A DNA stretch of 64,000 nucleotides from Mesoterricola sediminis. GTDB lineage: Bacteria; Acidobacteriota; Holophagae; Holophagales; Holophagaceae. Of the stretch, positions 30,647 to 42,481 are shown piece after piece. Both the position numbers and the translations under genes were made by a program. The notes under the pieces were generated by a model. It was not told the DNA's origin and made no database searches. It saw only the letters and a program-made list of their open reading frames with translations. How positions within the stretch are numbered: position 1 is the stretch's first letter; every line of letters begins with the position of its first letter. The stretch is taken from positions 1,612,001 to 1,676,000 of the forward strand of contig NZ_AP027081.1 of NCBI RefSeq assembly GCF_030295425.1. Direction: 5' to 3'.

Positions 30647-31141
30647 TCAGGACTCCAGGGCCTCGAGGCAGGCCGCGGCGGCCTCCCACTGGCGCTCCGA
30701 GAACACGGGGATCCCCGCCGCGCGGAGGCGCGCGGCGGCGACGCCCTGGCCCGGGACCCGGACGCCGGAGAAGGCGCCGTCGTGGATGGCGGCGGATCCG
30801 CAGCTCGGGCTGCCCTCCTTGAGCACGGCCAGGACCGCGCCCCCGGCCCGGGCCAGGTCCAGGGTGGCGGCGGCCCCCGCCAGGAAGGGGGCCGTGAGGT
30901 CCCGGCCGGCGGGGTCCAGGATCCGGGCCCGGCCCGCCAGCACCTCGCCGCCGTCCGCGCCGCCGGCGATTTCGGCGGGAGGGCGGGGCACCGGGAGACC
31001 GCCGGCCACCTCCGGGCAGCACGGGAGGACCCGGCCCTCCCGGAGCCAGCGCGCCAGGACCGGGTGGGTGGGCTCGAAGGCCCCGCCGTCGTAGCGCACC
31101 GGCTCGCCCAGGAGGCAGCTGCTGACGAGGACCCGCTTCAT
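30647..31141 (-). CDS. DUF523 family protein
   Basis: A 164-residue cytoplasmic protein with the family marks SSCLLGEPVRYDG at the N-terminus, LPCCPEVAGGL near residue 45 and VLKEGSPSCGSAAIHDG near residue 112. The conserved cysteines suggest iron-sulfur or metal binding. Members belong to the DUF523 group, whose role is not settled. The start overlaps the 3' end of the leftward membrane-protein gene by 4 bases, and its stop is 2 bases from the convergent kinase stop. Confidence 0.85.
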   Translation of the reverse strand: MKRVLVSSCLLGEPVRYDGGAFEPTHPVLARWLREGRVLPCCPEVAGGLPVPRPPAEIAGGADGGEVLAGRARILDPAGRDLTAPFLAGAAATLDLARAGGAVLAVLKEGSPSCGSAAIHDGAFSGVRVPGQGVAAARLRAAGIPVFSERQWEAAAACLEALES

Positions 31142-32604
31142 GGCGCGACCGGGACCGGCTTGCGGCCCAGCCAGACGGCACGGCCCACGGGGGCCCACTG
31201 CAGGTCCGGGAAGAGGAACCTGGGGTTGTAGGCGCACACGTAGGCCAGGCGATCGGCGGGCCCCATGCGGGCGATCCAGGGCCGCCAGACCGTGGGATCG
31301 TCGTAGGCGGCGACGGCGCGCCGGTACACGGCCAGGTCCGCGTCGGGCATGAGGGTCGGCTCGAAGCCCAGCACGTAGCGCCAGCGGGCGTGGGGATTGC
31401 GGTAGTAGGTGTCGTAGAACACCGCCATGTTGGCGGCGTAGATCACGCCGCCGTCGCCGGGCAGCCAGCCCTGCAGTTCGGGGCGGTCCGCGGCGATGGA
31501 GTTGGCGTGGGTGCGTTCGGCCCAGCGTCGGGGATCCGCCGAGGTGACGAGGAGGATGGCCGCCAGGCCCGCGCCCAGGGCCAGGACCAGCCGGCGCCCC
31601 GGAGCCCGTTCTCCCAGGGCGGCCAGGGCCGGTTCCAGTTGGCGGGCCAGCCAGAGGGCGGTGGCGGGCAGGCCCCAGTCCAGCCAAAAGCGCGACACCT
31701 TGAGACCCAGGAGCCAGCCGCCGAGGGCGAGCAGGAAGATCGGATCGCCCAGGCGGGCGCCCTCCTCCCCCCGCTCCACGGCCCAGAGCAGGGTGACGAG
31801 GAGGAGGCAACCCACCAGCCCGCTCCCCAGGGAGGGCCCAAGCTCGGCGGCCACCAGGCCGCCCTGGCCCAGGGGCCCCAGGGCATGGCCCAGGTGGATG
31901 AGTTCCCCCGCCAGGAAGGTCACCGGGTGGCCCGTCGCGAGGGCCGCGGCGGCGCAGCCGGCCATCCAGGCCAAGGCCAGGCGCCCCGCCTCCCAGCGGC
32001 GGTTGGCGGCGAGGAAGGCGAGGGGGATGAGGGCCAGCAGATACCAGCTGCCATGGAGGAGGGCCGCGACCCCGAACACCAGGGGCGTACCGAGCCACCG
32101 CGCCCAGGGGCCGGGCCGGGTCTCCCGGGTCCAGAGACTCAGGAGGACCAGCAGGCCGGCCATGGCCACGAGCAGGGGCCGGCCCAGCATCAGCCGCATC
32201 TGCCCGCCGCCGGCGATCCAGAGGAGCACCCAGGCGCAGACCCAGGCTTCGGGCACCCGCATCCAGGGCAGGGGCGCGAGCAGCACGAGGGCGGCCAGGC
32301 CCACCACGGAGAGGACGACCAGCCCATGGGCATCCAGCCCGAACCCGGCGTGGCAGGCCCGCAGGAGGGCGTGCCACGCCTGGTGCTGGTCGACGAGGAT
32401 GCCCGGCCGGAGCACCAGGATCTCGGTCCAGGGGCGGCCATCCACGGCCTGGGCGGCGTGCCGGAGGGCGTCGTCGGTGGGGTGGTAGCCGGTGGCCGCG
32501 AGGACCAGCGGCAGGGCCAGGAGGGCCAGGACCACGAGGAGCCCGGTGAGGCGCGCGGCGTGGCGCCGGAGGGCGCCGGCCAGGGTGGGGTCGGGGGCGT
32601 TCAT
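31138..32604 (-). CDS. Polytopic membrane protein, glycosyltransferase-like layout
   Basis: A 488-residue protein with about ten to eleven hydrophobic helices (first about 18-36) and a C-terminal soluble tail of about 130 residues. The first loop (about 38-75) has ATGYHPTDDALRHAAQAVDGRPWTE, an acidic loop after helix 1 as in GT-C membrane glycosyltransferases, but I cannot confirm the family. It overlaps DUF523 by 4 bases and the upstream paralogue by 4 bases, giving a leftward three-gene operon. Compared with the upstream paralogue, helices in the middle (ALAWMAGCAAA, DPIFLLALGGWLLGLKVSRFWLDWG, RRLVLALGAGLAAILL) line up well. Confidence 0.62.
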   Translation of the reverse strand: MNAPDPTLAGALRRHAARLTGLLVVLALLALPLVLAATGYHPTDDALRHAAQAVDGRPWTEILVLRPGILVDQHQAWHALLRACHAGFGLDAHGLVVLSVVGLAALVLLAPLPWMRVPEAWVCAWVLLWIAGGGQMRLMLGRPLLVAMAGLLVLLSLWTRETRPGPWARWLGTPLVFGVAALLHGSWYLLALIPLAFLAANRRWEAGRLALAWMAGCAAAALATGHPVTFLAGELIHLGHALGPLGQGGLVAAELGPSLGSGLVGCLLLVTLLWAVERGEEGARLGDPIFLLALGGWLLGLKVSRFWLDWGLPATALWLARQLEPALAALGERAPGRRLVLALGAGLAAILLVTSADPRRWAERTHANSIAADRPELQGWLPGDGGVIYAANMAVFYDTYYRNPHARWRYVLGFEPTLMPDADLAVYRRAVAAYDDPTVWRPWIARMGPADRLAYVCAYNPRFLFPDLQWAPVGRAVWLGRKPVPVAP

Positions 32605-33572
32605 CGGGTTCCTCCCCGGGCGGCGCCCGGCAGGGGCCTGGGGTTCCAGCGGCCCCCGGGATTGGCGGTGAAGAAGAGGAGGGCTGCAACGGCCAGGAAG
32701 ACCGCCAGCACCAGCCGGCGGCGCGGAGCCCGCGCCCCCAGGCGCTGGAAGGCCGGTTCAAGCTCTAAGGCCAGCCACAGGGCCGCGATGGGGTAGCCGG
32801 CCGCCAGCCAGAGCCCCGGGGCGCGCAACCCCGCGAACCACGTGCCGGCCGCCAGGAGGAAGGCGGGATCCTCCGCCAGCGACCGGCCACGGCCCTGGGC
32901 CGCACGGAGGAGGGCGCAGCCGAGGACGGCCAGCGCCGCCGGGCCCGGGTGGGACGGCGCGAAGGCCTCGCCCAGGCCCGTGAAGGGCCAGGGGGCGCCG
33001 GGGCGCAGGAGGGGCTCGCCGAGGAAGGGCAGGACGGCGCCCGTGAGGGCCATGGCCCCGGCGGTGCCAGCCGCCCAGGCCAGGGCCAGGTGGCCCGCCT
33101 CCCGGGCGCGGCCCGCGGCGAGGGTGGCGGCCGGGAGCAGGAGGAGCAGGGCGCCGCCCCCCCGGGCCCAGCCCGCCAGGCCCATGGCCAGCGCGGTGAG
33201 GGCCCAGCGCAGGCCGGGGCGGGACACCGGCCTGCGCCAGGCGATCGTCGTGGCCAGGAGCACGGCGACGGAGAGCAGGAGGGGCTGGCCCTGCATGGAC
33301 CAGCCCTGGGCGCCCTCCAGGCCCCACAGGAGCAGCCAGCTCGCGAGCCAGGCCTCGGGCGCCGCCAGCCAGGCCAGGGGCGCCCCCAGGACGGCCACAT
33401 GAAGGGCTGGACCCAGCCAGGCGGCGCGCTGGCCGGGGCCGGCCGGGGCCGGAAAGCCGCCGAGCCAGAGCAGGGCCGGCATGGCCAGGATGGCCGCGCC
33501 CGCGATCCAGGGGATCGCCTGGCCTATGGGGTTTTTTACAGGCGAGGGTGAGGCATCCGTAGGTTGAACCAT
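32601..33572 (-). CDS. Polytopic membrane protein, short paralogue of the next gene
   Basis: A 323-residue protein with about nine hydrophobic helices. Segments such as HLALAWAAGTAGA, DPAFLLAAGTWFAGLRAPGLWLAAGYPIAALWLALELEPAF and RRRLVLAVFLAVAALLFFTANPGGRW correspond in order to parts of the 488-residue protein encoded next. It stops just after the last helix, so it lacks the long soluble C-terminus, and the acidic loop after helix 1 is also missing. It looks like a tandem duplicate that lost catalytic or binding parts. It is the first gene of the leftward operon; its start region faces the acyl-CoA dehydrogenase gene across 149 bases. Confidence 0.6.
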   Translation of the reverse strand: MVQPTDASPSPVKNPIGQAIPWIAGAAILAMPALLWLGGFPAPAGPGQRAAWLGPALHVAVLGAPLAWLAAPEAWLASWLLLWGLEGAQGWSMQGQPLLLSVAVLLATTIAWRRPVSRPGLRWALTALAMGLAGWARGGGALLLLLPAATLAAGRAREAGHLALAWAAGTAGAMALTGAVLPFLGEPLLRPGAPWPFTGLGEAFAPSHPGPAALAVLGCALLRAAQGRGRSLAEDPAFLLAAGTWFAGLRAPGLWLAAGYPIAALWLALELEPAFQRLGARAPRRRLVLAVFLAVAALLFFTANPGGRWNPRPLPGAARGGTR

Positions 33573-33721: not shown

Positions 33722-34843
33722 ATGGATGAAGAGCTGGTCCTCTTCCGGGACGCCGTCGCCAAGTTCATCCACAAGACCTTCGTTCCCTGCCAGGAGCGCT
33801 GGCGGGCGCAGCACCATCCCGACCCGGACGCCTGGCGCAAGGCCGGCGAGGCGGGTCTCCTCCTGGTGGACCTGCCGGAAGCCAGCGGGGGCGGCGGCGG
33901 GACCTTCCGCCACGAGGCCGTCGTCATCGAGGAACTGGCCCGGGCCTCCGTGAACTTCGCCAACTACATCCAGGACGGCGTGGCCCACTACCTCCACCAG
34001 TACGGCAGCGCCGAGCAGCAGGCGCGTTGGCTGCCCGATCTGGCCAGCGGCGCCCGGGTGGGGGCCATCGCCCTCACGGAACCCGGGGGCGGCTCGGACC
34101 TGCAGGGCCTGGCCACCTCCGCCCGCCGGGATGGGGACCAGTACGTCCTCAACGGGTCGAAGACGTTCATCACCAACGGCACGCTGATGAACCTCCTCGT
34201 GGTGGCCGTGCGGACGGATCCCGCCGTGCCCGCCCTGCGGGGCATCTCCCTCCTGGTCTTCGAAACGGACGGCCTGCCCGGCTTCCACAAGGGCCGCCCC
34301 CTGGAGAAGGTGGGCATGAACGGCCAGGACACCTGCGAGGCCTTCTTCGACGAGGTGCGCGTGCCCGCGTCGAGCCTGCTGGGCCCCCGGGAGGGCCAGG
34401 GTTTCGCCCAGATCATGGATCGCATGGTGTACGAGCGCCTCGCCATCGCGGTGGGGGCCGCGGCCGCCATGGAGCGAGCCATCGAACTGACTTCCGAGTA
34501 TGTGAAGGAGCGGGGGGCCTACGGCGGCACCCTCATGGACCTGCAGAACACCCGGATGGTCCTGGCCGAGTGCGCCACCCGCGCCAAGCTCGGCCGCGTC
34601 TTCGTGGACGGCTGCATCGACCGCTACGTGGCGGGGAGGCTGGACCCGGTCACCGCGGCCCAGGCCAAGTACTGGCTCACGGAGAGCGAGTGCCTCGTCG
34701 CCGACGCCTGCGTCCAGCTCCACGGCGGATACGGCTACATGACCGAGTACGAGATCGCCCGCATCTGGGCCGACAGCCGGGTCCACCGGATCTACGGCGG
34801 GGCCAACGAGATCCTGAAGGAGATGATCGCGTGGTCCTTGTGA
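33722..34843 (+). CDS. Acyl-CoA dehydrogenase-like flavoenzyme (putative carrier-protein-bound substrate)
   Basis: A 373-residue protein with the full acyl-CoA dehydrogenase fold: FAD/substrate loop ALTEPGGGSDLQGL near residue 118, KTFITNG near 150, and the C-terminal FAD segment QLHGGYGYMTEYEIARIWADSRVHRIYGGANEI. The common catalytic Glu of the C-terminal YEG(T/A)N motif is Gly here (YGGAN); as in long-chain and isovaleryl-CoA dehydrogenases the base may instead be the Glu in MVYERLAIA. The next gene, an adenylation-carrier protein, overlaps it by 13 bases. Homologues in such settings oxidise aminoacyl groups tethered to carrier proteins (for example prolyl-carrier oxidation in pyrrole pathways), so a tethered substrate is plausible. 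Confidence 0.85.
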   Translation: MDEELVLFRDAVAKFIHKTFVPCQERWRAQHHPDPDAWRKAGEAGLLLVDLPEASGGGGGTFRHEAVVIEELARASVNFANYIQDGVAHYLHQYGSAEQQARWLPDLASGARVGAIALTEPGGGSDLQGLATSARRDGDQYVLNGSKTFITNGTLMNLLVVAVRTDPAVPALRGISLLVFETDGLPGFHKGRPLEKVGMNGQDTCEAFFDEVRVPASSLLGPREGQGFAQIMDRMVYERLAIAVGAAAAMERAIELTSEYVKERGAYGGTLMDLQNTRMVLAECATRAKLGRVFVDGCIDRYVAGRLDPVTAAQAKYWLTESECLVADACVQLHGGYGYMTEYEIARIWADSRVHRIYGGANEILKEMIAWSL

Positions 34844-36711
34844 AGACCTCCCTGGCCGCCTTCAACGACACCGCCGCCGACTGGCCTTCGGACCGCACCA
34901 TCGTGGACCTCTTCGAGGCCGCGGCGGCCGCGGATCCGGGGGCCGAGGCCATCCGCGCCGGGGAGCGCGCCCTGACCTTCGGCGAGCTCAACGCCCGCGC
35001 CAACCAGATCGCGTGGCAGCTCAAGTCGCTGGGAGCGAGGCCGGAGCGCGCCGTGGCCCTGAAGATGGAGCACTCCATCGAGGTGGTGTGCGCGATCCTG
35101 GGCATCCTGAAGTCCGGGTCGGCCTATGTCCCCATCGACCCCTCCAATCCGGCCCGCCGCGTGGAGGCCATCCTGGCCCGGATCGCGGAGACCCATCCCG
35201 GCGAGACCCCCCTGCTCGTGGCCGGGCAGGGCCAGGCCGCGGACCTGCCCAAGGGCCTGGCCCGGGTCGTGACCGTGTCGCCGGGCCTGCGCGGCCTGGA
35301 CCTCTTCCGCCGGGAGAACCCGGCCCGCGCGGCGGGCCCGGAGAACCTGGCCTACGTCATCTACACCTCCGGCTCCACCGGCGAGCCCAAGGGCGTGATG
35401 ATCGAGCACCGCAGCCTCGTGAACTACATCTGGTGGGCGAAGCGCTCCTACGTGCCCGCCAAGGGCATGGCCTGGCCCCTGTTCTCGTCCCTCGCCTTCG
35501 ACCTGACCGTGACGACGGTCTTCACGCCGCTGGTGTCGGAAGGGCGCATCCTCGTCTACCACGACGCGGGCTGGTCCCACGGGACCCTCCTCCTCAAGGT
35601 GATCGAGGACCGCGCGGTGAACATCATGAAGCTCACCCCGGCCCACCTGGCGCTGGTCAAGGACATGGACCTGGCCGCCCTGGACCTGCGCGTCCTCGTG
35701 GTGGGCGGCGAGGACCTGAAGGCCGGGCTCGCCCGGGAGATCCTCGCCAAGGCCGGTCCCGGCGTGGCCATCTACAACGAGTACGGCCCCACCGAGGCCA
35801 CCGTCGGGTGCATGATCCACCGCTACGACCCCGAGCTCGACACCGGCGTCTCCGTGCCCATCGGGACCCCCGCGGCGAACATGGCGGTCCTGCCCCTGGA
35901 CGAGGCCTACCGGCCCGCGGGGCCCGGCGGGCAGGGCCAGCTCTTCCTGGCCGGGCCCGGCCTGGCCCGGGGCTACCTCAACCGGCCCGACCTCACCGCC
36001 CAGCGCTTCCTCGAGATCCCCGATCCCCGCGAAGGCCGGGAGGGGGAGCGCCTCCGCGTCTACGCCACCGGGGACCTGGCCCGCTGGGGCGAGGACGGGC
36101 GGCTCGTGTTCCTGGGGCGCGCCGACGCCCAGGTGAAGATCGGCGGGGCCCGCATCGAACTGGGCGAGATCGAGGCCCGCCTCCAGCAGCACCCGGCGGT
36201 CCGCCGCTGCGCCGTCGCGGTGGTCCGGCAGCCGGGCGCCGCCCCCGAGGACGGGGACGCCAATCGCCTGGCGGCCTACTACGAAGCGGAGACCCCCCTT
36301 GCCGCCGGGGAGCTGCGGGCCTTCCTGGCCGAAACCCTGCCGGCCTTCATGCTGCCGGCCCACTACCTCCACCTGGACCGCCTGCCCCTCACCACCAACG
36401 GCAAGCTGGACCAGGCCGCCCTTCCGGCCCCCGGCACGGACCGGCCCGAGGTCTCCGCCGGGTTCGTGGAACAGGCCAGCGAGACCGAGGCGCAGATCGC
36501 CGCCATCTGGAAGGACGCCCTCCGCCTCACCCAGATCGGCGTGCGCGACGACTTCTTCGAGCTGGGGGGGAAGTCCCTCCCGGCAATCCGCATCCTCATG
36601 CAGATCAACAAGCTGTTCGGAATCGAGGTGCCCGTGGCCGCCTTCTTCGCGCACCCGACGGTGGCGGAGCTGGCTGAACTGGTCGACCGGCTCCGGGCCG
36701 GCAAGGACTGA
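34831..36711 (+). CDS. Stand-alone NRPS adenylation-carrier protein (A-PCP), Asn/Asp-like
   Basis: A 626-residue NRPS-like protein. The adenylation domain (about 15-520) shows AYVIYTSGSTGEPKGVMIEH, NEYGPTEATVG, YATGDLARWGEDG and LTTNGKLDQ. The carrier domain (about 540-620) has DDFFELGGKSLPAIR with the phosphopantetheine Ser. Reading the ten specificity positions by alignment to GrsA gives D-L-T-K-V-G-E-V-G-K, which differs at one position from the Asn code and is also close to the Asp code. There is no condensation, thioesterase or reductase domain. The start is GTG 34831, with AAGGAG 8 bases upstream inside the dehydrogenase gene; GTG 34840 is the alternative. A PPTase two genes downstream would activate it. 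Confidence 0.88.
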   Translation: MVLVKTSLAAFNDTAADWPSDRTIVDLFEAAAAADPGAEAIRAGERALTFGELNARANQIAWQLKSLGARPERAVALKMEHSIEVVCAILGILKSGSAYVPIDPSNPARRVEAILARIAETHPGETPLLVAGQGQAADLPKGLARVVTVSPGLRGLDLFRRENPARAAGPENLAYVIYTSGSTGEPKGVMIEHRSLVNYIWWAKRSYVPAKGMAWPLFSSLAFDLTVTTVFTPLVSEGRILVYHDAGWSHGTLLLKVIEDRAVNIMKLTPAHLALVKDMDLAALDLRVLVVGGEDLKAGLAREILAKAGPGVAIYNEYGPTEATVGCMIHRYDPELDTGVSVPIGTPAANMAVLPLDEAYRPAGPGGQGQLFLAGPGLARGYLNRPDLTAQRFLEIPDPREGREGERLRVYATGDLARWGEDGRLVFLGRADAQVKIGGARIELGEIEARLQQHPAVRRCAVAVVRQPGAAPEDGDANRLAAYYEAETPLAAGELRAFLAETLPAFMLPAHYLHLDRLPLTTNGKLDQAALPAPGTDRPEVSAGFVEQASETEAQIAAIWKDALRLTQIGVRDDFFELGGKSLPAIRILMQINKLFGIEVPVAAFFAHPTVAELAELVDRLRAGKD

Positions 36712-36726
36712 AACCCAGGAGCGCGC

Positions 36727-37401
36727 ATGAGCAAGGTGATCATCTTCGGAAGCGGCGGCTGGGCCCAGTACCTGCATCATTGCCTGACCCACGATTCGCC
36801 CCACGAGGTCGTGGCCTTCACGGTCGACGGCGAGTACGTGAAGGAGCCCACCCTCCTGGGCCTGCCCGTCGTGCCCTTCGAGGACCTTCCGGCCCGCTTC
36901 CACCCGGAGACGCACCGCATGCTGGTGGGGCTGAGCTACCAGCAGATGAACCGCCTGCGCCAGGCCCGGTACGCCCAGGCCAAGGCCAAGGGCTACGAAC
37001 TCATCTCGTACGTCAGCTCCCGCGCCGAGGTGGCGCCCGGCGTCGAGCTCGGCGACAACTGCCTCATCCTCGAGAAGGCCATCGTCCAGCCCTTCGTGAG
37101 GATCGGCGCCGACGTGACCGTGTGCGCCGCCGCCATCGTCGGCCACCACACCACCATCCGGGACCACGCCTTCGTGGCGCCCGCGGCGGTGCTCCTGGGC
37201 CTGGTGGGCATCGGGGAGCGCTGCCTCATCGGCGCCAACAGCACCGTGTACCAGGGCATCCAACTGGAGGAGGGCTGCCTCATCGGGATGGGCGTATGCG
37301 TGAACGAGAGCGCCAAGGCCGGCAGCGTCTTCATCCAGCCCTCCCCGGAGCAGATGCCCCAGACGAGCGACGAGCTGATCCCCTTCCTCCGCTGGTCCTG
37401 A
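36727..37401 (+). CDS. NeuD-like left-handed beta-helix acyltransferase
   Basis: A 224-residue protein. Residues 1-90 form a Rossmann-like PglD/NeuD N-terminus (KVIIFGSGGWAQYLHHCL). From about 95 the hexapeptide pattern of a left-handed beta helix begins (SRAEVAPGVELGDNCLILEKAIVQPFVRIGADVTVCAAAIVGHHTTIRDHAFVAP given here in shortened view: SSRAEVAPGVELGDNC and CAAAIVGHHTTIRD). The conserved catalytic His of the family is probably in VGHHTTI. Enzymes of this fold transfer acyl groups to amines or hydroxyls of sugars and amino acids. It begins 15 bases after the A-PCP gene, so the product may be an acylated amino-acid derivative. Confidence 0.8.
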   Translation: MSKVIIFGSGGWAQYLHHCLTHDSPHEVVAFTVDGEYVKEPTLLGLPVVPFEDLPARFHPETHRMLVGLSYQQMNRLRQARYAQAKAKGYELISYVSSRAEVAPGVELGDNCLILEKAIVQPFVRIGADVTVCAAAIVGHHTTIRDHAFVAPAAVLLGLVGIGERCLIGANSTVYQGIQLEEGCLIGMGVCVNESAKAGSVFIQPSPEQMPQTSDELIPFLRWS

Positions 37402-37403
37402 GC

Positions 37404-38111
37404 GTGGCCCCCGGCGAGGTCCAGGTCCGCGCCGCCCTGTTCCGGGACCTGGAGCCCGCCCTGGCCCGCTACCAGGCCTGGCTCTCCCCCGCCGAGCGGG
37501 ACCGGGCGGGGCGTTTCCGGAGGCCGGAGGACCGCCTCGCGTTCCAGCTGGGCCGCGGCTTCCTGCGGGCCCTCCTCGGGCGCGCCCTCGGCCAGGAGGC
37601 CTGGACCGGCGCCTTCGCGGCGGGTCCCGGGGGGCGCCCGGCCCTGCCCGGCGGGGCCGGGCGGGACCTGCGCTTCAGCCTCGCCCGGACCGGGTCGGCC
37701 GTGGCCTGCGCCCTGGCGGAAGGCCTGGAGGTGGGTCTGGACCTGGAATCCCCGGACCGGGGCCCGGATCCCACGGCCTGGGCCGCCGCCGCCCTGGGGC
37801 CGGCGGAGGCGGAGGCCTGGGGGACCCTGCCGGCGGCGGACCAGCCGGAGGCCCTCCTGCGCGCCTGGGTCGCCAAGGAGGCGGCCCTCAAGCTGGATGG
37901 CCGGGGCCTGGCCCTGGACCCCCGGAGCGCCCAGGCCGGTCCGGACTGTTGGCTCCAGGACACCTGCATCGTTAGCTTGCCTGACAGGGCGGCCTGGGTG
38001 CGGGGCTTCGCCTGGCAGGGGGCGCGGCTGGCGGTCGCCGCCTGGGCTCCTCCGGGCCGCCTGGACCTGCCCCCAGGTCCCGGGTTCCCTTGCGGGCGCG
38101 GACCCGCGTAG
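37404..38111 (+). CDS. 4'-phosphopantetheinyl transferase, Sfp type
   Basis: A 235-residue transferase that adds the phosphopantetheine arm to carrier proteins. The family marks are visible: DLRFSLARTGSAVACAL, the Mg-binding Asp in VGLDLE near residue 113, and WVAKEAALKLDGRGL near residue 156. The GTG at 37404 starts 2 bases after the stop of the acyltransferase gene. It is likely the fourth gene of the biosynthetic operon and its target is the carrier domain of the A-PCP. The last 40 residues (Pro-rich) have no match that I recognise. Confidence 0.85.
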   Translation: MAPGEVQVRAALFRDLEPALARYQAWLSPAERDRAGRFRRPEDRLAFQLGRGFLRALLGRALGQEAWTGAFAAGPGGRPALPGGAGRDLRFSLARTGSAVACALAEGLEVGLDLESPDRGPDPTAWAAAALGPAEAEAWGTLPAADQPEALLRAWVAKEAALKLDGRGLALDPRSAQAGPDCWLQDTCIVSLPDRAAWVRGFAWQGARLAVAAWAPPGRLDLPPGPGFPCGRGPA

Positions 38112-40190: not shown

Positions 40191-40351
40191 GATCGGCCTC
40201 GATCCGATTCTAGCCGAGATTGAGTCCGGCCGTCAGGGGTCCGAGGTCGGAATACAGGAAACGGAAATGCAGCATTCCCAGGGCTTGAGGTCCGACCCCC
40301 CCGGGGGGGCCGCCCTGGGGTACCATGGGGCAACCCTTCGAGGAGGCTCCC

Positions 40352-41272
40352 ATGACCGCTCGGGTCAAAGAAATCCTGTCGTGGTACGGCTCGGACAATC
40401 CCGGCGTGAAGGCCAACCTCGCGCGCCTGATGAACACCGGACGGCTCGCGGGGACTGGCAAGTTCGTCATCCTGCCCGTGGACCAGGGCTTCGAGCACGG
40501 TCCCGCCCGCAGCTTCGCGCCCAACCCGGCGGGGTACGACCCCCGCTACCACGTGGAGCTGGCCATCGAGGCCGGCTGCAACGCCTACGCGGCCCCCCTG
40601 GGCTTCCTGGAGGCGGTGGCCGGGGACTACGCGGGCGACATCCCCCTCATCCTCAAGCTGAACAACAGCGACAGCCTCTCGAAGCTGCCCGAGCCCTGCT
40701 CCGCCGTCACGGGGAGCGTGGAGGACGCCCTCCGCCTGGGCTGCGCCGCCATCGGCTACACCATCTACCCCGGCAGCGGCGACCGGAACGCCCAGCTCGA
40801 GGCCCTCCGGGAGCTGATCCTCGAGGCCAAGGCCGTGGGCCTCCCCACCGTCGTCTGGTCCTACCCGCGGGGCGGGGGCGTCTCCAAGGAGGGCGAGACG
40901 GCCCTCGACGTGGTGGCCTACGCCGCGCAGGAGGCCGCCCAGCTCGGCGCCCACATCATCAAGGTCAAGCCCCCCAAGGCCTTCCTGGAGCAGGCCGAGG
41001 CCAAGAAGGTCTACGAGAAGCACGGCGTCCCCATGGACACCCTGGCGGACCGCATCCGCCACGTCGTCCAGGCCGCCTTCAACGGGCGGCGCATCGTCAT
41101 CTTCTCCGGCGGCGAGGCCAAGGGCACCGAGGAGGTGCTGGCCGAGGTGCGGGAGATCGCCAAGGGCGGCGGCTTCGGTTCCATCATGGGCCGCAACGCC
41201 TTCCAGCGCCCCAAGGCCCAGGCCCTGGAGCTGCTGGCGGCCGTCATGGAGATCCACGCCGCCGCGCGCTGA
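40352..41272 (+). CDS. fbaB: Class I fructose-bisphosphate aldolase (DhnA type)
   Basis: A 306-residue aldolase that cleaves fructose 1,6-bisphosphate by Schiff-base chemistry. Family marks: [26 protein letters not shown] near residue 108, [10 protein letters not shown], the Schiff-base Lys region [12 protein letters not shown] (about 205-216), and the phosphate-binding end FSGGEAKG and [12 protein letters not shown]. The ATG at 40352 follows GAGGAGG; an upstream ATG at 40325 has no site. It is tail-to-tail with a class II aldolase gene, separated by a strong hairpin. Confidence 0.92.
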
Positions 41273-41359: not shown

Positions 41360-42388
41360 CTACGCGATCGTGCCGAGGGTGCGGCCCGCGCTGCGGAGGT
41401 CCTGGCAGGTGCGGATGACCCGGTCGGCCATGCTCTGCTCGGCCTTCTTCATGTAGGGGCGGGGGTCGTAGGCCTTCTTGTCGCCCACCTCGCCGTCCAC
41501 CTTGAGGACGCCGTCGTAGTTCTTGAACATGTGGTGGGCGATGGCGCGGGTGAACGCGTACTGGGTGTCGGTGTCGACGTTCATCTTCACGACGCCGTAG
41601 TCCAGGGTGGCGTGGATCTCCTCGAGGCTGGAGCCGGAGCCGCCGTGGAACACGAGGCGGGTGCGGGCGCCGCCGCAGGCCTTGGCGATGGCCTCCTGGC
41701 CCTCCTTCAGGATCTCGGGCTTCAGCACGACGTTGCCCGGCTTGTAGACGCCATGGACGTTGCCGAAGGTGGCGGCCAGGAGGTAGGGCCCGATGGGGCC
41801 CAGGGCCTTGTGGACGGCCACCATGTCCTCGGGCGTGGTGTAGAGCTTGTCCTTGGGCGTGCCGCTGGTGTCGTGGCCGTCCTCCTCGCCGCCGACGACG
41901 CCCGTCTCGACCTCGAGGACGATCTCGCTCTTGGCGCAGCGGGTGAGGAGCTCGACGGAGCGCTTGATGTTCTCGTCCAGGGGCAGCTCGGAACCGTCGA
42001 ACATGTGGGCGTTGAAGAGGTTGCCCTGGCCCGCGGCGCGGCGGCGCTCGGTCTCGGCGATGAGGGGGAGCACGAAGGTGTCGAGGTACTTGGGGTGGCA
42101 GTGGTCCGTGTGGAGGGCCACGTTCACCTCGTAGTGCTGGGCCATGTAGTGCACGTACTGGGCCAGCGCGATGGCGCCCTTGGCCATCTCCTTCACGCCC
42201 AGGCCGGACATGAACTCGGCCCCGCCCGTGGACACCTGGATGATGCCGTCGGCCTTGGCGGTCTTGAGGCCCAGGAGCACGGCGTTGGCGGTCTCGGTGG
42301 AGGTGACGTTGAAGGCGCCGAAGGCGTACTTCCCTTCCTGGGCCTTCTCGAGCATGGTGCGGTATTGGGCGGGTGTGACGACCGGCAT
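41360..42388 (-). CDS. fbaA: Class II fructose-bisphosphate aldolase
   Basis: A 342-residue zinc-dependent aldolase. Zinc and substrate ligands are visible: [13 protein letters not shown] near residue 92, [13 protein letters not shown] near 170, [14 protein letters not shown] near 215, and VFHGGSGSS and [14 protein letters not shown] in the C-terminal half. The ATG at 42386-42388 was chosen as the start of MPVVTPAQY; 19 further in-frame residues upstream look unlike the family. Divergent from the MFS gene. Confidence 0.93.
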
Positions 42389-42481
42389 CTGGAACCTCGT
42401 TGCTATGCGTCCCCCAGTTTGACACCGGCGGCGCCTCCCGGGCAACGAGGGCTATGATTGATTCAGGAGGCATGCGCTGCC

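Follow-up and report, generated by a model that had tools for sequence, protein, structure and literature searches.

A predicted asparaginyl-carrier dehydrogenase and its adenylation partner in a compact four-gene operon of Mesoterricola sediminis

Overview

In the window analyzed here, a 64,000-nucleotide stretch of the Mesoterricola sediminis genome (contig NZ_AP027081.1, positions 1,612,001 to 1,676,000), four genes on the + strand (window positions 33722-38111) form an operon that encodes an acyl-CoA-dehydrogenase-like flavoenzyme (ACAD), a stand-alone adenylation-carrier protein (A-PCP), a NeuD-type transferase and an Sfp-type 4'-phosphopantetheinyl transferase (PPTase). The ACAD belongs to a dedicated subfamily which recurs in two phyla beside A-PCPs whose codes specify Asn or Asp (collectively Asx). 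By analogy with known dehydrogenases of carrier-bound amino acids, the best reading is that it would catalyze the α,β-desaturation of carrier-bound Asn. That the operon by itself suffices to make an oxidised asparagine acyl group and, through the NeuD-type protein, to transfer it, is a proposition on which we are evenly poised, the transfer step and its acceptor being its least sure part.

Organization of the operon

The four genes, with the Pfam and NCBIfam matches and other evidence for each, are:

33722..34843, + strand: ACAD of 373 aa, predicted to dehydrogenate Asn on the carrier (three-domain Pfam ACAD N/M/C match; LCAD structures; adenylation-linked clade)
34840..36711, + strand: A-PCP, code DLTKVGEVGK (Asn) (Pfam AMP-binding, AMP-binding_C and PP-binding; code; A-domain tree)
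36727..37401, + strand: NeuD/PglD-type left-handed β-helix acyltransferase, 224 aa (TIGR03570, Hexapep/NeuD_NnaD; PerB alignment)
37404..38111, + strand: Sfp/HetI-type PPTase, 235 aa (Pfam ACPS, 41.2 bits; HetI model, 68 bits; intact motifs GLDLE and WVAKEAALK)

The GTG start of the A-PCP gene at 34840 overlaps the ACAD stop codon (common letters GTGA), the NeuD-type gene begins 15 bases past the A-PCP stop and the PPTase gene, which also starts with GTG, begins 2 bases past the NeuD stop. The re-read coordinates and domain models thus bear out the first-pass annotation, which had described four genes overlapping or 2-15 bases apart. None of the four genes encodes a thioesterase or condensation domain. 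The host genome is complete (4.52 Mb) and belongs to the Holophagaceae, the family that also includes Geothrix.

An asparagine-type code in the adenylation domain

The core motifs of the adenylation (A) domain are intact (A3, YTSGSTGEPKG; A5, NEYGPTE; A10, NGKLD), and the carrier serine sits in DDFFELGGKSL. Signature extraction reproduced the code that had been read initially, DLTKVGEVGK, and this profiling pointed to no amino acid outside the Asn/Asp class. Homologous loci retrieved for comparison are designated by L-numbers (e.g., L038 is that of Geothrix oryzisoli). Two CysH-like A domains, one from Corallococcus (L093) and one from a Rugamonas cluster with, by eye, p-aminobenzoate-type genes (L102), carry the code DLTKIGEVGK, identical to that of the window at nine of the ten positions. 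A Glu at code position 322 is found in the window, L038, L039, L125-127 and the AMDH-type partners, and likewise in both CysH-like domains. The A domains paired with ACADs have either DLTKIGEVGK or DLTKVGEVGK (Asn), or else DLTK[IV]GHVGK, which we take to be the Asp code of the usual table; these Asp-code partners, with a His at position 322, constitute a separate set and contain an FkbM methyltransferase insert.

In the cystobactamid pathway, the stand-alone A(Asn)-PCP CysH, whose sequence is interrupted by an AMDH domain, accepts Asn, as well as Gln, isoasparagine and β-cyanoalanine, and refuses Asp and Glu (PMC7966384). Because the window code includes the Glu322 of the CysH-like domains, and CysH refuses Asp, the window A domain is best assigned to Asn, which it is predicted to load. 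Of the earlier suggestion of tethered Asn or Asp, the former is therefore retained and the latter disfavoured.

The dehydrogenase and its catalytic base

The closest solved relatives of the ACAD are human LCAD (8w0t/8w0z) and a Geobacillus ACAD rather than the prolyl-ACP enzyme 4irn, as is apparent from the profile scores (2pg0, 511 bits; LCAD, 465 bits; 4irn, 226 bits). Its structural model (pLDDT 88) superimposes on human LCAD with a Z-score of 50.7 and a root-mean-square deviation (rmsd) of 1.8 over 371 aligned residues, and ColB1 (7xp7; Z 43.1, rmsd 2.4, 362 aligned) and PigA are also among the fold matches. The score against NCBIfam NF045652 (PltE/RedW), 187 bits, lies below the cut-off of 650 and, together with the profile ranking, rules out descent from the PltE/PigA-type enzymes of prolyl-derived pyrrole formation. 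The comparison with that chemistry, which the first-pass annotation had drawn, hence holds for its logic but not for descent, the ACAD being of the LCAD type.

The usual C-terminal Glu is replaced by Gly359, as had been noticed at the outset, and the accompanying expectation that the base lies elsewhere is confirmed by the alignment of Glu238 (in VYERLAIA) with the LCAD base Glu, which is a Gln in 8w0z, the human LCAD structures 8w0z and 8w0t differing at this residue. In LCAD and IVD the catalytic base is located in helix G, and the predicted base of the ACAD is Glu238, at the LCAD/IVD-type site. All ACADs linked to A domains have Tyr-Glu-Arg at the base site and Gly or Ala at the usual C-terminal Glu site. 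Both an ACAD fold and a base able to take an α-proton are present (domains, model and Glu238 alignment), and electron-transfer flavoprotein (ETF) genes are found in the host genome. The columns that set the A-linked enzymes apart from other ACADs are few (Q24, P33, Y317 and the Tyr before the base) and serve as a lead only.

A dedicated subfamily with changing adenylation partners

Scans for the ACAD across 297 Acidobacteriota and 346 Gemmatimonadota genomes, combined with loci found via the A-PCP, recovered 17 distinct loci at which an ACAD (53-100% identity) has an Asx-code A-PCP as its neighbour, in most cases at a distance of 0-36 bases; the exceptions to this pairing are L124, which stands alone, and L150, which is cut by a contig end. 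The full four-gene operon is repeated in Geothrix oryzisoli, with identities of 70, 67, 64 and 42% and unrelated flanks. As the four-gene set recurs in that species, and the ACAD/A-PCP pair in two phyla, the window operon is no chance grouping; in this search for co-occurrence, the complete set was confined to the window and L038.

The remaining loci show varied contexts. Three further Geothrix-genus genomes (L125-127) carry the ACAD and A(Asn)-PCP within an exopolysaccharide locus that also encodes Wzc and glycosyltransferases, another acidobacterium (L123) has an ACAD with an A(Asp)-FkbM-PCP-thioesterase protein near glycosyltransferase and sugar-transferase genes, and in an acidobacterial metagenome-assembled genome (L039) the ACAD and A(Asn)-PCP open a nonribosomal peptide synthetase (NRPS). 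The Gemmatimonadota possess PPTase-ACAD-A loci of two kinds, both of which occur in genome G334. In one kind (L040-043, L082), A(Asn) contains an AMDH-like insert (TIGR03573, 134.7 bits, below the cut-off of 203) and is followed in L041 and L082 by a TubC-thioesterase, and in the other (L144-148), A(Asp) contains an FkbM methyltransferase insert, with some loci continuing into Gly and Thr modules. The AMDH insert is absent from the A-PCPs of the window and L038.

In phylogenetic trees, the A-linked ACADs, including that of L150, form one clade (ultrafast bootstrap 94, SH-aLRT 91) with L124 as its sister, whereas plasmid-borne β-oxidation homologues (52-55% identity), several of which sit in thiolase/ligase clusters, and other acidobacterial ACADs (46-48%) fall outside it. 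The partner A domains occupy three places in the A-domain tree, representing up to three lineages, two of them bearing inserts, and all have Asn or Asp codes; the bootstrap trees contain three changes of partner, at least two of which are forced by the starred branches, and the approximately unbiased test does not reject a single clade of partner A domains (p 0.08). Thus, going by the trees, the ACAD lineage likely swapped its A-domain partners. Since one ACAD lineage is associated with changing partners that always have Asx codes, its substrate would be a tethered Asx, and the initial view that the ACAD and A-PCP belong together is upheld. A neutral side chain could result from the AMDH as well as the FkbM insert, which suggests that such a side chain is needed and might be the common denominator of these systems.

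Two alternatives concerning the substrate may be weighed against this background. The ACAD might be an ordinary fatty acyl-CoA dehydrogenase lying beside the A-PCP by accident, a view to which its LCAD-like fold and sequence and the absence of an A-PCP beside its close relative L124 lend some colour. However, L124 is the only such case among the close relatives, and the single clade of A-linked ACADs, 17 of them adjoining Asx-code A-PCPs in two phyla, to the exclusion of the β-oxidation homologues (46-55% identity), led us to reject this explanation, which we regard as highly improbable. Only slightly better placed is the possibility that the A domain loads Asp rather than Asn and that the ACAD acts on tethered Asp. 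The Asn and Asp codes are indeed separated by few positions, and Asp-code partners are present in the same ACAD clade, but the Glu322 common to L093 and the window, L038, L039, L125-127 and AMDH-type domains, along with the loading preference of CysH, disfavours Asp as the window substrate; further, the partners with His322 combine it with the FkbM insert, as if a neutral side chain were required. We consider Asp improbable.

An observation in its own right concerns the Asp-code loci L123:5322-8879, L144:9301-15168, L145:7722-10460 and L147:1076-10111, where A(Asp) is split between A8 and A9 by the FkbM domain. Such split domains are always found behind an ACAD of the A-linked subfamily and possibly allow methylation of the side-chain carboxyl on the carrier.

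Proposed pathway and release of the product

In the route proposed for the window operon, the PPTase would convert the carrier to its holo form, and the A domain would adenylate L-Asn and charge the PCP with it. Using Glu238 as its base and FAD as the hydride acceptor, and passing the electrons to ETF, the ACAD would then take the α-proton and the β-hydride. The expected product, 2,3-dehydroasparaginyl-S-PCP, is proposed because CaeB1 and ColB1 dehydrogenate cysteinyl-S-PCP in an analogous manner. Finally, the NeuD-type transferase would shift the dehydro-Asn acyl group to an amine, most likely one on an activated amino sugar; such a transfer would account for the absence of thioesterase and condensation domains.

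The NeuD-type protein scores 154.5 bits against TIGR03570, just under the cut-off of 160.8, and its orthologue in L038 exceeds it with 176.8. In the alignment with PerB, its His140 occupies the position of the catalytic His (an Asn in 4eaa); the next residue is also a His, as opposed to the Asp/Glu of sugar N-acyltransferases. The structural model (pLDDT 69) was uninformative: no fold match was significant, and even the best ones (WeeI, PglB-type transferases, a sugar dehydrogenase domain) had E > 0.1. Transfer to an amino sugar is favoured because the nearest NeuD homologues elsewhere lie beside WbqC, glycosyltransferase and 4-amino-4,6-dideoxy-sugar transaminase genes, and because the host genome has about seven strong DegT-type aminotransferase matches. 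This gene context makes such a transfer the single most likely use of the protein, plausible though well under certainty. The earlier proposal that the tethered product is released by, or onto, an acyl-transfer product has gained no support so far.

Several observations weigh against the route as proposed. No sugar genes adjoin the window operon, a NeuD gene joins the ACAD/A-PCP pair in two species only, and the NeuD-type protein lacks the NH of GNHIGHH, a motif near-invariant among its relatives. Additionally, the Gemmatimonadota and L123 have a thioesterase in place of NeuD, while L039, L144, L146 and L147 run on into NRPS modules with Gly and Thr codes, and small peptides are therefore expected to be made at those loci. 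Lastly, the 59% identical ACAD of L124 has no adjoining A-PCP; a partner in trans was considered and rejected, as the A(Asn)-AMDH-like module of that genome lies in a different cluster with an ACAD of its own (31%).

A further alternative is that the desaturated Asn thioester is the precursor of a free small metabolite, and that the NeuD-type protein acts only as an acetylase of the amine or of some later product. Acetyl-CoA is the normal donor for NeuD/PglD enzymes, which would fit that role, as would an operon devoid of sugar genes and the termination of other ACAD/A-PCP loci in thioesterases or their continuation as short NRPS lines. Its release from the carrier could be spontaneous, through attack of the side-chain amide on the thioester and formation of an aminomaleimide, or hydrolytic, with a keto compound as the outcome; dehydrocysteinyl-PCP is in fact unstable and hydrolyses (PMC8149447). 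Against this stand the amino-sugar clusters harbouring the closest NeuD homologues and the several sister ACAD/A-PCP loci near Wzc, glycosyltransferase or flippase genes. We regard this small-metabolite outcome as a real if lesser possibility, behind the oxidised-asparagine transfer route. More doubtful is the broad generalization of that route into a hitherto undescribed class of tethered-Asx desaturases spanning two phyla and three A lineages, and in part feeding dehydro-Asx acyl groups to surface-glycan amino sugars via NeuD-type transferases.

In two acidobacterial glycan clusters (L176:5039-9286 and L177:5165-8805), the gene for a NeuD-type transferase comes after those for an SDR and a stand-alone A domain, a gene order which suggests adenylation-fed N-acyl groups on sugars.

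Relation to known systems

The prolyl-PCP pairs (PltE/PltF, RedW, PigA, AnaB) likewise combine a flavoenzyme of the ACAD fold with a lone A domain that loads a carrier, but the window code is for Asn rather than Pro and the window ACAD is of the LCAD lineage. In AnaB the base is in helix G and not C-terminal, the same placement as in the window ACAD. CaeB1 and ColB1, of the caerulomycin and collismycin pathways, are trans-acting ACADs that α,β-dehydrogenate cysteinyl-S-PCP, in vitro in the case of CaeB1, with the unstable dehydrocysteinyl product decaying to a pyruvoyl form (PMC8149447). A comparable trans oxidation of aminoacyl-S-PCP is predicted for the window; however, CaeB1/ColB1 act on Cys in a large assembly line, via a Ct domain and with the C-terminal base E372, unlike the window enzyme with Glu238 and a lone A-PCP for Asn as its partner.

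CysH and AlbIV (cystobactamid and albicidin) similarly are stand-alone A(Asn)-PCPs that hold Asn for enzymes acting in trans (PMC7966384), and the code of the CysH-like L093 is one position apart from that of the window, but CysH has an AMDH insert between A8 and A9 and a hydroxylase instead of an ACAD. The NeuD-type protein resembles the sugar N-acyltransferases PglD, PerB, VioB and NeuD in sequence family, aligned catalytic His and the amino-sugar context of its homologues, and differs in lying beside an A-PCP and ACAD rather than sugar genes. In contrast to FadE/LCAD of β-oxidation, the window ACAD neither lies among β-oxidation genes nor branches with such enzymes.

Among amino acids loaded on a carrier by an A domain, Pro and Cys are already known as ACAD substrates. 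In the open literature searched, which did not extend to subscription journals, no report was found of dehydroasparagine, of an asparaginyl carrier dehydrogenase, or of the Asn/Asp version with its lineage, recurrence and minimal arrangement of four genes. A recurring Asn/Asp version equipped with a PPTase of its own would provide a compact means of making dehydro-Asx units, and the ACAD subfamily offers a genome-mining handle on uncharacterised pathways in soil Acidobacteriota and Gemmatimonadota. If the NeuD step does act on sugars, NRPS carriers would supply glycan decoration, with NRPS-type chemistry serving as the donor system.

Neighbouring genes and other loci

A 53% identical ACAD lies directly behind an NRPS with a Gly-like code in its last A domain on a plasmid of Streptomyces sp. 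3211 (L154:1-7125). It branches with the fatty-acid-type homologues and perhaps represents an independent recruitment. A distinct recurring cluster type from several phyla (L086, L094, L098, L099, L108, L109, L110, L158) combines an A(Asn) bearing a large insert with a stand-alone AMP ligase, in most cases with a distant ACAD (~30% identity) and in some, by eye, with an ornithine-cyclodeaminase-like gene.

In the window flanks, no further gene evidently joins the operon, the downstream genes having no evident link to it. Upstream, on the opposite strand (31138-33572, - strand), lies an adjacent pair of polytopic membrane proteins with no Pfam match, which by eye are similar to each other and to GT-C glycosyltransferases. 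Further along the window, two genes that by eye are fructose-bisphosphate-aldolase-like and of different classes are arranged tail to tail (40325-41272, + strand; 41360-42445, - strand).

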